Below, in pieces: positions 4,365 through 62,815 of a stretch of 64,000 nt of DNA. Source of the DNA: Alphaproteobacteria bacterium (GTDB taxonomy: Bacteria; Pseudomonadota; Alphaproteobacteria; Caulobacterales; Maricaulaceae); the NCBI GenBank assembly GCA_016124665.1, contig WGNH01000009.1, forward strand, positions 62,001-126,000, given 5' to 3'. Within the stretch, counting starts at the first letter, position 1, and every line of letters begins with the position of its first letter. The notes beneath the pieces were generated by a model. That model was not told where the DNA came from, did not search any database, and saw nothing but the letters and a program-made list of their open reading frames with translations. The position numbers and the translations under genes are program-made.

Positions 4365-6133
4365 TGGGCTGTTCTCACCACGGGTTCAGGATCGGGCGTC
4401 AATGCCGCCCGCACCAGCGCCGAGCGGGTCAGCGGATCATCCTGCTGTTCCACACCCAGAATCGATGCGATGCGCGTTATGATTTCGCCTGCTGCAGGGG
4501 CTGCCGTCCACCCGCCGGTTGCATACCCGTAGGTGGCGGCTGTGCCCTGCGGCTCATCCAGAATGACCAGCACAACATATTGCGGATCATCATAGGGGAA
4601 GACGGCCGAAAAAGACGAGATCAGACGGTCTTCGTCATAGCCACCGCGGCCGGGTTTTTCCGCCGTCCCGGTTTTACCGGCCACGCGGAATCCCGGTGCA
4701 TCGGCCCGGCTGCCCGTGCCGTTTTCGACAACATCCCGCATCATGGTGAGCACGCTCTGCGCCACTTCCGGTGCGAGGACGCGTTCACCGGCAACGGTTT
4801 CATCCGGCCGCACCGGCCGCAGGGTCGGCCGCACATAAGTGCCGCCATTCGCAATGGCTGCAAAAGCCGACGCGACCGCAAGCGGGCTGACAGCAATGCC
4901 ATGGCCATAAGAAATGGTTGCAGTCTCGGTTGGGCCCCAGCGCTGCGGAAGGAGCGGCGTCGCGCTCTCTGCCAGTTCGATCGGTGCGCGCTCCAGCAGG
5001 CGAAGCCGGCCCAGAAGATCCCGTTGACGGTCTGCGCCGGCTTCAAGCGCGATGCGGGACGAGCCGATATTCGAGGAGTGGGTAAATATCTCTTCCAGCG
5101 TCAGCGCACGGTTCTCGGCGTGGAAGTCCTCGATGGTATAGCCGCCGATCTGCAATGGAGCTGTTGCATCGAAGGTTTCCCCGGGTTCCGCGATGCCGCT
5201 CTCCAGCGCCAGCGCGACGGTGAAGGCCTTGAAGGTCGAACCCATTTCATAGCGGGCCTGGAGGGCACGGTTCAGACGCTCATCAGCGCTGGCTGCTCCG
5301 GCCTGATTGGGGTCAAAGTCGGGCAGCGAAACAAGGCTGAGGATTTCTCCGGTGTCGACATCCATGACAATGCCGGTTGCGGCAATGGCCTGGAATTCCG
5401 CCATGTAGCGGCGCAACACTTCATCGACATGGAACTGGACACCCATATCAATGGAGAGGGCTACCGGGCGTCCGCCGTCATTGGAGAGTGCGAGATTGAA
5501 CGCCTGCTCGGCCCCGGCCAGGCCCGTCATATCACGGCCGGCATGACCGACCGCGTGTGCGGCGAGCCGGCCACGGGGATAGACGCGGCTGGGCTCGGTG
5601 CGGAATTCAAGTCCGGGCTGACCCAGCGAGAAAACAGCCTGGCGCTGGCGCGGGGTCAGATTGCGCTGGATCCAGACGAAACGCCGGCGCGATGACAGAT
5701 CCGCCGTGAGTTCATCGACATCAAGCCCGGGCAGGACAGTAACCAAAGCCTCGGCGGTTTCCCGTGCATCCCAGACGAGTTGCGGATCGGCAAAGAGGGA
5801 CCAGGTTTCGAGCGTTGTCGCCAAGACCTGTCCGTTACGGTCAACCAGATCACCGCGGCGCACTTCCGCCAGCACTGGCGGCGCGGCAGCCGCTTCTCCT
5901 CCAGAGAAGGCCAGATCAATGGCGCGGATACCCAGCGCGGCGAAGGCAATTACCATCGCAAAGCCGATAACCGCCATCCGGCGGCGGGCATCCTCCATAA
6001 TAGAGGCATCTTCATTCTCGATACGGAGTACCCGCGTCAGGTTGTCGGGCGCAGCCTCCGGTAGCGGCGCGCTGTCGGCATAGGACTCAAACCGGGGCGG
6101 ACTTTTCCGCCTGGGCCAGAGGCGGCTGATCAT
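4361..6133 (-). CDS. ftsI: Peptidoglycan D,D-transpeptidase FtsI (class B PBP)
   Basis: 590 aa; single N-terminal TM, SxxK (GSTFK), SSN and KTGTAEK transpeptidase motifs. Confidence 0.95.
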   Translation of the reverse strand: MISRLWPRRKSPPRFESYADSAPLPEAAPDNLTRVLRIENEDASIMEDARRRMAVIGFAMVIAFAALGIRAIDLAFSGGEAAAAPPVLAEVRRGDLVDRNGQVLATTLETWSLFADPQLVWDARETAEALVTVLPGLDVDELTADLSSRRRFVWIQRNLTPRQRQAVFSLGQPGLEFRTEPSRVYPRGRLAAHAVGHAGRDMTGLAGAEQAFNLALSNDGGRPVALSIDMGVQFHVDEVLRRYMAEFQAIAATGIVMDVDTGEILSLVSLPDFDPNQAGAASADERLNRALQARYEMGSTFKAFTVALALESGIAEPGETFDATAPLQIGGYTIEDFHAENRALTLEEIFTHSSNIGSSRIALEAGADRQRDLLGRLRLLERAPIELAESATPLLPQRWGPTETATISYGHGIAVSPLAVASAFAAIANGGTYVRPTLRPVRPDETVAGERVLAPEVAQSVLTMMRDVVENGTGSRADAPGFRVAGKTGTAEKPGRGGYDEDRLISSFSAVFPYDDPQYVVLVILDEPQGTAATYGYATGGWTAAPAAGEIITRIASILGVEQQDDPLTRSALVRAALTPDPEPVVRTAQ

Positions 6134-59461: not shown

Positions 59462-60334
59462 TCAGCCCGATATGCCGGAGTCCAGAACGGGGCCGCGGGC
59501 CATGGAATTCTGGAAGAACATCCGCATCAGGCCAGGGGATCCCTTTGCCGTGTTTTCAAGGTGCGCGCGGATGTCGTCCGGTACGGACCCTTCGGGTGCC
59601 AACGGGTTTTGAGCTGCCACCGAGGCCTCAAACAATTCTTCGTCATCGCCGGCATCGCCGGTCAGATCCGAAATCCGGTGCATGATGACCGCCGAACAGG
59701 CAGGTGAACTGCCGGCATCGCGCAAGGTGCCAATCGACAGCCCGTCCAGCACCTCTGCCTTTTGCCGGGCCACGCCGTTGAAAATCCCGAACATCATGGT
59801 GACGCTGTCCTCATCCGCCGCCATGGAGAAAAGCTGGTGTTGCAAGAGCAGCGCCCGGCCCCGGTAACGGATACCCTCAATACCGGACGAGAATTCGATG
59901 ACGCCGACCTCATTGGAGCGGATCATCGTGATGTCGTGGAGGAAACGGCCGGGCAGATCGCTGGAAAAGCGTGTCGAGCGCCAGATCCCGTCATAGGAGA
60001 CCGCCCGTCTCTTCGCGCCCCGCGTGGCTTCTTCCAGCAAGGCATCGGGCAACCAGTTGCGCATGGAAATATCGCTGACCGGGCCATCCACGCCGAGCCG
60101 TGCCGAAAAGGCGCCGATGTCGGTATCCCAGTCCAGCATTGAAAAGCCGTCCACCCGTTCGGCGATAAACCGGGTCAGCAGGGCGAGATTGTGCTCGGAG
60201 GGTTTTACCGCACCGGATGCCCAGCGGCCAACCAGCGACTTGTCGACATTCAGCCCGGCCGCCAGTCCGGCCCGGCTGATCGACAGGGATTTCAGCACCA
60301 TCTGGAGCTTTTCGGAAAAGGAGGCCGCTCTCAT
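59462..60334 (-). CDS. HTH-containing transcriptional regulator with large uncharacterised C-terminal domain
   Basis: SEKLQMVLKSLSISRAGLAAGLNVDKSLVGRWASGAVKPSEHNLALLTRFIAERV HTH; 290 aa. Confidence 0.75.
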   Translation of the reverse strand: MRAASFSEKLQMVLKSLSISRAGLAAGLNVDKSLVGRWASGAVKPSEHNLALLTRFIAERVDGFSMLDWDTDIGAFSARLGVDGPVSDISMRNWLPDALLEEATRGAKRRAVSYDGIWRSTRFSSDLPGRFLHDITMIRSNEVGVIEFSSGIEGIRYRGRALLLQHQLFSMAADEDSVTMMFGIFNGVARQKAEVLDGLSIGTLRDAGSSPACSAVIMHRISDLTGDAGDDEELFEASVAAQNPLAPEGSVPDDIRAHLENTAKGSPGLMRMFFQNSMARGPVLDSGISG

Positions 60335-60352: not shown

Positions 60353-60392
60353 GTTGCATTTCGATGCAACAAGGTTGCATGCAGGTGCAACC
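60353..60392. promoter_or_regulatory. Two adjacent inverted repeats, putative operators of the HTH regulator
   Basis: GTTGCAT-TTCG-ATGCAAC (60353-60370) and GGTTGCA-TGCAGG-TGCAACC (60373-60392). Confidence 0.65.
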
Positions 60393-60514: not shown

Positions 60515-61732
60515 ATGAGCCTGAAACATACCCTGATCGGAAGCCTTGCGCTTTCGGCCCTTTCTGCCCCGGTTATTGCTGATCAAACCGATTTCAGCTT
60601 TGCTGTGCACGACATCATCGTGACGTCGAACATCCCGGCTGTGAATATCTCGGTGCGGAACCTGTCCGCCTCGACCGATCCGGCCGACCGTGATCTTCGG
60701 ATGGTTTCGGATGATCCGGAATTCCATGTGACCGGCCAGGTCTGGTGCAAATCCTTCAACCAGGGCCAGACCGGCGCGATTCGGGCCCGCATCCTGTTTG
60801 GCAATGCCAATGTGGTTGCCGCACCCAATGGTGCTGACCTGCTTCCACTCGGCACATGGGGGGCTTCTCAGACTCAGACGTTCAACGGCAATCACACGCT
60901 GGAGAATTTTTCCATCGAGACCACGCTTGACCTGCCGTCGAGCTGGAATGGCGGACTCAATCTCGGCACCTTCAATCCCGTCGAATACGTCGAAGGCCGG
61001 CTCGACCATTATGTCGAGCAGGGGGCCGGCAGCGAGGCTGACTTCCTTCGCGTGGATGATGTGTTCGAAACGACAATCACGCTGAACGCGGTCGGCTGGT
61101 GCAGCTATCAGAGCCAGAGCACGTCTGGCGAGTATGCGGGCCTCCGCGCTATCGAAGTCCCGGTTCACATCTTCTATCATGGCGATCCGGACATCCAGGA
61201 CGTCATCACCTCGGTCGGCGGGGCCAATACGCTGACCGCGCCTGTTCCGAGCCGGGCACGCAGCACGTCGACGGCCCGTGGCGCCAACAGTCAACCACCC
61301 GCCACAAGCGAGCCGCCGGCCCGTGCCCGCCCGCAGAGGGTCAGAACACCCGGCAATGATGGCGGCGGCCAGCCGCGCGCCGCATACACAGGCGGGGTCC
61401 GTGTCGCGACCGGCGATGTCAATAATGACGGTCTCAAGATGGCAGATGTGTCCAAGCAGGACCGCCCGGTTCCGGTGCGTCGAGGCCGCCGCGATACCGT
61501 TAATGGCCCGGCCGAGCCACAAGCGGGACTGTTACTTCCGGCGGTTCAACACGTCCGGTCTGAACAGGACGAAACATCCGCAGACCAGGGGACGATCAAC
61601 TACACCGGCCTTGAAAACCGGGCTGCCGGTATCGAGCCGGACGAGATCGATAACTCCGTGGCACAGGAAGCCGACGCCGAACCGCAGGATGCGTATATGT
61701 GGTTCAACAATCCGCGGGGTAACGGCAACTAG
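60515..61732 (+). CDS. Exported protein of unknown function with N-terminal beta-rich domain, disordered linker and shared C-terminal module
   Basis: Signal peptide MSLKHTLIGSLALSALSAPVIA; PQAGLLLPAVQH...NYT...GIEPDEIDN. Confidence 0.65.
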   Translation: MSLKHTLIGSLALSALSAPVIADQTDFSFAVHDIIVTSNIPAVNISVRNLSASTDPADRDLRMVSDDPEFHVTGQVWCKSFNQGQTGAIRARILFGNANVVAAPNGADLLPLGTWGASQTQTFNGNHTLENFSIETTLDLPSSWNGGLNLGTFNPVEYVEGRLDHYVEQGAGSEADFLRVDDVFETTITLNAVGWCSYQSQSTSGEYAGLRAIEVPVHIFYHGDPDIQDVITSVGGANTLTAPVPSRARSTSTARGANSQPPATSEPPARARPQRVRTPGNDGGGQPRAAYTGGVRVATGDVNNDGLKMADVSKQDRPVPVRRGRRDTVNGPAEPQAGLLLPAVQHVRSEQDETSADQGTINYTGLENRAAGIEPDEIDNSVAQEADAEPQDAYMWFNNPRGNGN

Positions 61733-61748
61733 CCGCCCCCCTCCAGTC

Positions 61749-61770
61749 AGGCAGCTCTGCGGAGCTGCCT
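61749..61770 (+). promoter_or_regulatory. Intercistronic hairpin without U tract
   Basis: AGGCAGCTC-TGCG-GAGCTGCCT perfect 9-bp stem. Confidence 0.6.
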
Positions 61771-61834
61771 GCTCCACCACCCTTCAACGTCAAGACAGGG
61801 ATCGCACCGCGTTCCCTGAAAGAGGAAAACTGTA

Positions 61835-62269
61835 ATGAAACGCATGATTTTTTCCGGCACCATGATGGCGGCGGCTGCCCTCATCTCCTTTCCGGTTGCT
61901 GCCGACAACCCGCCACTCCACCGCGCGGAAATCTCTGGAAACACGCCCCAGGCGGGGCTGATCCTGCCAGCCGTTCAACATGCTCAGGCTGCCGGCGCAG
62001 CGCTTCCTGCGGAGCAAATGTCGCTCAACTATACCGAAGTGAAAAATGCCAGCACCGGCGTCGAACCTGACGAAATCGACAACCGGTTTGCGCTGGAAGC
62101 TGCGCATGATCCGGACTGCCCGACGATTGGCAATGTCGTGCGCCGGGAAGCCACCAATGCTCTGGTCGGCGCACTTTTCGGCGCGCGGGCCGACGACCGC
62201 AACCGGGATCGCCGGACGACACGGGAACGCCTGGCCGACGACGCCATCGACCGCATGACGCAGTGCTGA
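61835..62269 (+). CDS. Exported protein of unknown function carrying the same 46-aa module
   Basis: Signal peptide; PQAGLILPAVQH...NYT...GVEPDEIDN. Confidence 0.65.
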   Translation: MKRMIFSGTMMAAAALISFPVAADNPPLHRAEISGNTPQAGLILPAVQHAQAAGAALPAEQMSLNYTEVKNASTGVEPDEIDNRFALEAAHDPDCPTIGNVVRREATNALVGALFGARADDRNRDRRTTRERLADDAIDRMTQC

Positions 62270-62392: not shown

Positions 62393-62815
62393 ATGAAACG
62401 GATACTCTCGACGACCGCTCTGGCCCTCGGCCTGACACTGGCTGGCTTCACAGCGATTGCGGAGGCGCAGCAACGCGTTCAGCCTGCTCAGCAGCCAGCC
62501 CGCGTACAGGGGGCCTATGCCCCGGTGACGCCGGCCGAATTCACGACCTGCCGCATCTTCCGGATCTGGGTGGCACAAAGCGGGCTGGTCTTCCATTGCA
62601 ATGGTATTGCCATGACCTTCACCGGCGGAACCCAGCCCGGCGGCATCGCAGCCGCCACATCGCTTCTGCTTCAATACCGTGCGGATGAATCAAATATTTT
62701 CGTCCGCTACCAGATGGACCCGGACAATGCGGCCTGTGCCGAAATCGATTACACGCGATATGAAAACATGTTCGAGGCTGGCCAGTGCGCCCGGGTGATC
62801 TCGCTCGGTTATTGA
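62393..62815 (+). CDS. Small exported protein of unknown function
   Basis: Signal peptide MKRILSTTALALGLTLAGFTAIAEAQ; about 140 aa; four Cys. Confidence 0.6.
   Translation: MKRILSTTALALGLTLAGFTAIAEAQQRVQPAQQPARVQGAYAPVTPAEFTTCRIFRIWVAQSGLVFHCNGIAMTFTGGTQPGGIAAATSLLLQYRADESNIFVRYQMDPDNAACAEIDYTRYENMFEAGQCARVISLGY

Follow-up and report, generated by a model that had tools for sequence, protein, structure and literature searches.

Genes and features of the locus

In the window, i.e., the whole stretch of 64,000 nucleotides that was analysed, a divergent XRE-type (HTH_3-like) gene on the minus strand (59462-60334) is presumed to encode the regulator of a cassette of exported proteins; its Pfam HTH_3 match (E = 0.0058) is below the curated cut-off, and its orthologue stands beside exported genes in most relatives, Brevundimonas included. 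Next to it, a genome-wide pattern match together with conservation points to two adjacent operator-like palindromes GTTGCA-N6-TGCAAC (60353-60391, namely 60353-60370 and 60374-60391). The exported protein P1 (60515-61732, plus strand; 405 amino acids) combines a signal peptide, a beta-rich domain and a long disordered tail harboring short motifs, and has relatives at 42-98% identity. Model and alignment place the beta-rich, Ig-like domain, with its two invariant cysteines, at 60611-61180. The tail carries motif G (61406-61432), ATGDVNNDG within GGVRVATGDVNNDG, in the form of an FG-GAP-like DxNxDG loop, and then copy a (61517-61654) of a 46-residue stretch in which sequence comparison identifies three elements: the DUF1559-like motif Q, LLLPAVQ (61529-61549), motif N, INYT in the context TINYTGLENR (61595-61606), and motif E, IEPDEID (61631-61651).

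The small exported protein P2 (61835-62269, plus strand; 144 amino acids) is composed of a signal peptide, copy b of the same stretch (61946-62083) and a C-terminal segment bounded by cysteines. In copy b, motif Q reads LILPAVQ (61958-61978), motif N is found together with AGAALPAEQMSLNYTEVKNA, a segment resembling the C-terminal strand of Hcp (61991-62050), and motif E reads VEPDEID (62060-62080). Comparison with relatives indicates that the C-terminal segment, C...RREA..GALFG...DRM..C (62117-62266), is fused to the tails of P1 homologues in Brevundimonas and in genome G002. Neither P1 nor P2 has a Pfam or NCBIfam match, literature searches returned nothing on these proteins, and no described family covers them or their motifs. 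Downstream of P2, the gene at 62393-62815 encodes P3, the third exported protein here and without family assignment; among the loci compared, it has a clear orthologue only in H. indicum.

Two copies of an old duplication

A sequence-only reading of this DNA had proposed that two neighbouring exported proteins share a 46-residue module without gaps, C-terminal in the first and central in the second. The observations behind this proposal hold: P1 and P2 both have signal-peptide-like N-termini, the copies occupy residues 335-380 of 405 in P1 and residues 38-83 of 144 in P2, the translations are exactly as quoted there, and 25 of the 46 aligned residues are identical. With BLOSUM62, the best ungapped segment between the two proteins scores 151; over 200 shuffles of both, the scores averaged 31 and never exceeded 51. 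At the DNA level, 84 of 138 positions are identical; since the codon is shared at only 9 of the 25 identical residues and the synonymous distance is saturated, the duplication must be old and has been kept at the protein level.

On these comparisons, copies a and b are recognized as old paralogues, and a single protein from a sister species (G005) contains both types in tandem. The tail of this protein first displays a set of the copy b type, LILPAVQ...PPAEQLSLNYT...VEPDEID, and then a set of the copy a type, LLLPAVQ...TINYTGLENR...VEPEEID. Copy a of the window scores 161 against the latter and only 151 against copy b of the window. The simplest history would be a tandem duplication within one tail followed by a split into two genes in the lineage of the window, after which P2 would have retained the C-terminal segment, which in Brevundimonas and G002 forms one chain with the P1-like protein. 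Between genomes G000 and G003, dN/dS is about 0.06 for the beta-rich domain and about 0.28 for the tail, which indicates purifying selection on both.

Motifs in a disordered tail

AlphaFold2, run on P1 with an alignment of only six sequences, gives a beta-rich domain at residues 33-222 and disorder at residues 226-405 (pLDDT below 50), with values of 24-36 over residues 331-390, so that no confident structure covers the 46 residues. The model of the beta-rich domain is of moderate quality (pLDDT 67); comparison with the PDB by fold and by sequence returned no confident match, the fold searches giving only weak generic beta-sandwich matches. Taken with the missing Pfam and NCBIfam matches and with the separation and reshuffling of the motifs in relatives, the low confidence of the whole tail makes the small domain suggested by the sequence-only reading unlikely. 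The 46 residues do not form one unit either, but three short motifs with variable linkers. Conserved short segments, a disordered context and reshuffling between proteins are all found here, as in short linear motifs. Of the earlier suggestions, that of a shared interaction motif is retained, with binding as a putative property, whereas a domain and a sorting or processing signal find no support.

Among relatives, motif Q takes the form (A/G)L(L/I)(L/V)PAVQ, or, more narrowly, (A/G)L(L/I)LPAVQ with the core LPAVQ, motif N is (L/I)(N/G)YT or, more narrowly, (S/T)(L/I)NYT, and motif E is (V/I/L)EP(D/E)EID or, more narrowly, G(V/I/L)EPDEID. Further elements of the tails are motif G, GGVRVATGDVNGDG, motif H, F(V/I)K(I/F)EGVDGES, and a stretch resembling dockerin. 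Segments common to different tails amount to 276 pairs at a score of at least 40, as against 9-24 pairs in composition-matched shuffles.

The motifs differ in number, order and host protein. A single chain of 521 amino acids in G005 displays the order G-Q-E-E-N-E-Q-N-E-D, and that of G001 is G-H-Q-E. In G019, six E and two Q motifs, with E repeated at a spacing of 19 residues, are found in a protein distinct from the one with the beta-rich domain, and G021 has two motif genes. E and G are associated with the C-terminal segment of the P2 type in G002; in Brevundimonas, the tails combine this segment with the Q variants LLVPAVQ or LIVPAVQ and, in two of the three, also with G. In two Caulobacteraceae genomes (G715 and G611), the regulator faces an exported mini-protein of about 110 amino acids with H, G and a C-terminal Q. 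Beta-rich genes with no recognisable motifs are also found (Peiella L006 and G004), as is a regulator with a motif protein where no beta-rich gene was detected (G063).

Several minor observations concern the same proteins. The motif proteins of genus g9 (L089 and L049) have the identical C-terminal end RVRRGMQELKN. Behind the regulator, two related exported proteins (L091 4442-5371 and L093 5201-5686) share the cysteine-rich C-terminus CNxGxCxCAGAxDC...CTCQG, with LLPAVQ in one and LAYVQ at the same place in the other. In G109, only a 62-residue remnant of an exported frame is left beside the regulator (L090, about 5632-5829), which suggests loss of the motif gene.

Regulator and operator-like sites

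The palindrome GTTGCA-N6-TGCAAC has two exact matches in the 2.7-Mb genome, both in the region between the regulator gene and P1. The palindromes are probably the operator of the divergent regulator, a link drawn from their position and conservation. In most relatives, TGCAA boxes precede the regulator gene on its upstream side, often 11 or 21 nucleotides apart. Other genera retain the operator-like palindromes in the form of TGCAAC boxes spaced by helical turns.

The sites are also found where the genes are not neighbours. In G106 and G110, the beta-rich gene is far from the regulator, yet the region about 125-150 nucleotides ahead of its start, much as in the window, contains GTTGCATCGATATGCAAC in G106 and two TGCAAC boxes 11 nucleotides apart in G110. 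These sites independently link the beta-rich protein with the proteins that bear the motifs. Not all homologues of the regulator have an exported neighbour of the motif type.

As in known arrangements of an XRE-type regulator with a divergent target, a regulator, a common intergenic operator-like region and a divergent exported gene are present; unlike in these, the targets are disordered exported proteins made of motif strings. From its gene content, the patchily distributed cassette is read as an XRE-type regulator and, behind operator-like sites, a divergent exported beta-rich protein together with exported proteins made of motif strings. This compact putative regulon, comprising regulator, operator-like sites, exported partner and motif strings, lends itself to deletion and testing as a whole.

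Distribution of the cassette and its motifs

The genome of the window is Hyphobacterium-like, and a P1 with 95% identity is found in H. indicum. With one genome sampled per species, some of them incomplete, relatives of P1 occur patchily, in 8 of 60 relatives and in 11 of 398 genomes of the order, Brevundimonas and Peiella among them. VEPDEID is present in 8 of 137 genomes of the family, in seven of them at this cassette; the remaining match (G024) belongs to an unrelated parvulin-like protein and was set aside. In 385 other alphaproteobacterial genomes there are 4 matches, in unrelated frames and in no exported tail protein, so EPDEID was rejected as a general motif of the class; it is lineage-restricted, occurring elsewhere in the class only at chance level. 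The LPAVQ pattern is found at two places in the genome of the window, and additional matches in the family fall in short or unrelated frames. Neither of the outcomes that the sequence-only reading had named as refuting it was observed: the motifs are present at the orthologous locus of further genomes, so that they are not peculiar to this DNA, and they resolve to no known generic domain.

TINYTGLE and GVEPDEIDA have one match each in viral contigs, where the FG-GAP-like peptide has none. Plasmid searches with N/E, dockerin-like, FG-GAP-like and Hcp-like peptides returned no match.

Motif strings as proposed docking elements

It is proposed, with a probability of about 0.5, that the shared stretch strings together three short linear motifs (LPAVQ as Q, NYT as N and EPDEID as E), borne by the exported disordered tail of P1 and by P2, that these motifs dock a common exported partner, and that the regulator controls the set. 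Control would be exerted through the GTTGCA-N6-TGCAAC sites. The motifs would act as multivalent docking elements, Q being helix-like and N and H strand-like, and their partner would be a common exported protein, most simply the beta-rich domain. In some cases a motif string belongs to the same chain as an exported beta-rich domain, in others it is an exported protein of its own, preceded by the same operator-like sites, and it is this interchange, between one chain and separate co-regulated chains, that makes the beta-rich domain the simplest candidate.

Likeness to Hcp

An Hcp profile based on 25 members of PF05638 from this class and order was run on whole tails. Ten of the 20 tails score above all of 2000 shuffles (maximum 4.2 bits), with 17.5 and 13.6 bits in G106, 11.1 in G001, 9.7 in P2 of the window (at the segment accompanying motif N) and 9.6 in G715. 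The score of P2 is reached by none of its 2000 shuffles and ranks second against 611 background open reading frames; among 611 open frames, only four reach at least 5.5 bits, all of them cassette proteins, and the reversed profile gives nothing above 0. The likeness of these signature strands to Hcp is therefore beyond chance. The matches fall on the N-terminal strand (profile positions about 13-47) and on the C-terminal strand (132-163): the tail segment FVKIEGVDGESQ resembles the former, and LPAEQMSLNYTEVK and LPTEEVTLGYTEVEW resemble the latter. A G715 segment, NGKHLKNAKLTPRKQG, scores 52 against a central Hcp strand as compared with a null maximum of 38, and is weak on the profile (3.7 bits). 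Unlike Hcp, the tube protein of the T6SS, the cassette tails lack most of the barrel; only segments of 15-32 residues match the custom profile, with no Pfam match in the proteins of the window or in relatives. A phmmer search of the PDB with the Hcp-like peptides gave repeat-like chance matches or nothing, so that the link to Hcp rests on the custom profile. In G106, EPDEID aligns with the Hcp segment (G)EIDVL, through three residues, which are too few to settle the origin of the motif.

No PF05638 protein was found in the genus, but the order commonly has exported Hcp-like proteins that carry signal peptides. Those observed across several families, in the order and in the class (L158-L163, L145 and L150), are apparently not T6SS tube proteins. 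Within the same order, an open frame of 2860 residues (G055:C1:1631019-1633301; L165, L179-L181) contains four tandem Hcp-like domains (PF05638). Two overlapping minus-strand frames of G106 (L049 7492-8160 and 7905-9629) are Hcp N-terminal-like in one and C-terminal-like in the other, with GIVPH in both, and may represent a frameshifted or duplicated gene.

The abundance of such exported proteins lends some substance to the idea that the tails are decaying, functionless remnants of Hcp-like and other exported proteins, of which only signature segments can still be recognized. The matches at the two terminal strands, the weak one at the central strand and the short remnant frame beside the regulator in G109 would agree with it. 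Decay, however, should not keep signature segments while losing the scaffold, and motif Q has been kept from Brevundimonas to Hyphobacterium and repeatedly duplicated, and E is present in up to six copies. The dN/dS of the tail, and the presence of G, Q and dockerin-like segments, which are not Hcp, likewise speak against it, and this reading is regarded as doubtful.

Likeness to FG-GAP, dockerin and DUF1559

The peptides behind the other resemblances were picked for their apparent similarity, making the E-values optimistic; the Hcp result, obtained on whole tails, is the stronger one. The motif G peptide of G005, equivalent to that of P1, matches Pfam FG-GAP (PF01839) with E = 0.0017, over 14 residues and at 18.7 bits against a cut-off of 22.1. 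In two tails, the segments SPMDALLVINH and ALDALRIINH match Dockerin_1 (PF00404) with E = 0.037 and 0.067, at 13.8-14.6 bits against a cut-off of 22.9. Although the tails thus share DxNxDG-type and dockerin-like segments with these families, they display single partial elements, with neither the repeat arrays of FG-GAP proteins nor the two loop-helix segments of a type I dockerin.

Since GDVNGDG is a canonical DxNxDG calcium loop and EPDEID is acidic and regularly spaced in G019, the motifs might bind calcium or other ions and belong to a secreted, disordered tail whose folding takes place outside the cell, as with RTX repeats. This is rather unlikely: acidic ligands are missing from LPAVQ and NYT, folding of the RTX type would need more than the one or two loops present in a chain, and no RTX or dockerin family was found above cut-off.

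Regarding motif Q, its region shares the helix segment LLLPAVQ.AREAARR with the DUF1559 pseudopilins of planctomycetes. A 24-residue tail peptide of G110 has exactly two matches in a collection of 72,556 plasmids, both planctomycete DUF1559 proteins, with E-values (0.3 and 1) that are not significant alone; the collection contains three DUF1559 genes, two of which are those matched. Unlike in these pseudopilins, the Q motifs of the cassette are not preceded by a prepilin N-terminus (GFTLIE) or a membrane helix; when all Q contexts were set against L095 and L096, none combined GFTLIE with a hydrophobic helix.

The signature segments of unrelated assembly families are thus found in one disordered exported chain, which is unusual. 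Such a collage would imply either that an assembly segment retains a function when isolated from its fold or that exported proteins arise by the gathering of such segments, and both possibilities are directly testable with short peptides. A bolder and quite improbable extension would see in the exported motif strings assembly decoys or strand and helix donors. By displaying, side by side, conserved assembly segments of several unrelated polymers that are exported or secreted (N- and C-terminal strands of Hcp, the proline region of the pseudopilin helix, loops of the FG-GAP and dockerin kinds), they would capture, cap or poison such structures of neighbouring bacteria or of the own cell, under a dedicated local regulator.

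Sorting and peptide signals

The docking reading also has to be weighed against two very improbable signalling roles. The module lies near the C-terminus in P1 and a few relatives, and LPAVQ ends the mini-proteins of Caulobacteraceae, as might be expected of a sorting, anchoring or processing signal comparable to LPXTG or PEP-CTERM; yet it is central in P2, occurs in several copies per chain (up to six repeats in one relative), is followed by no membrane anchor and is limited to one cassette rather than spread over the exported proteins of the genome. By analogy with the Rgg/SHP systems of Gram-positives, the exported proteins could conceivably be the source of a signalling peptide detected by the XRE-type regulator, which is divergent from a small exported protein and in some genomes faces mini-proteins ending in the hydrophobic, conserved GLLLPAVQKAR, but no import route is known, the C-terminal domain of the regulator shows no peptide-binding family, and motif Q is internal in many members.
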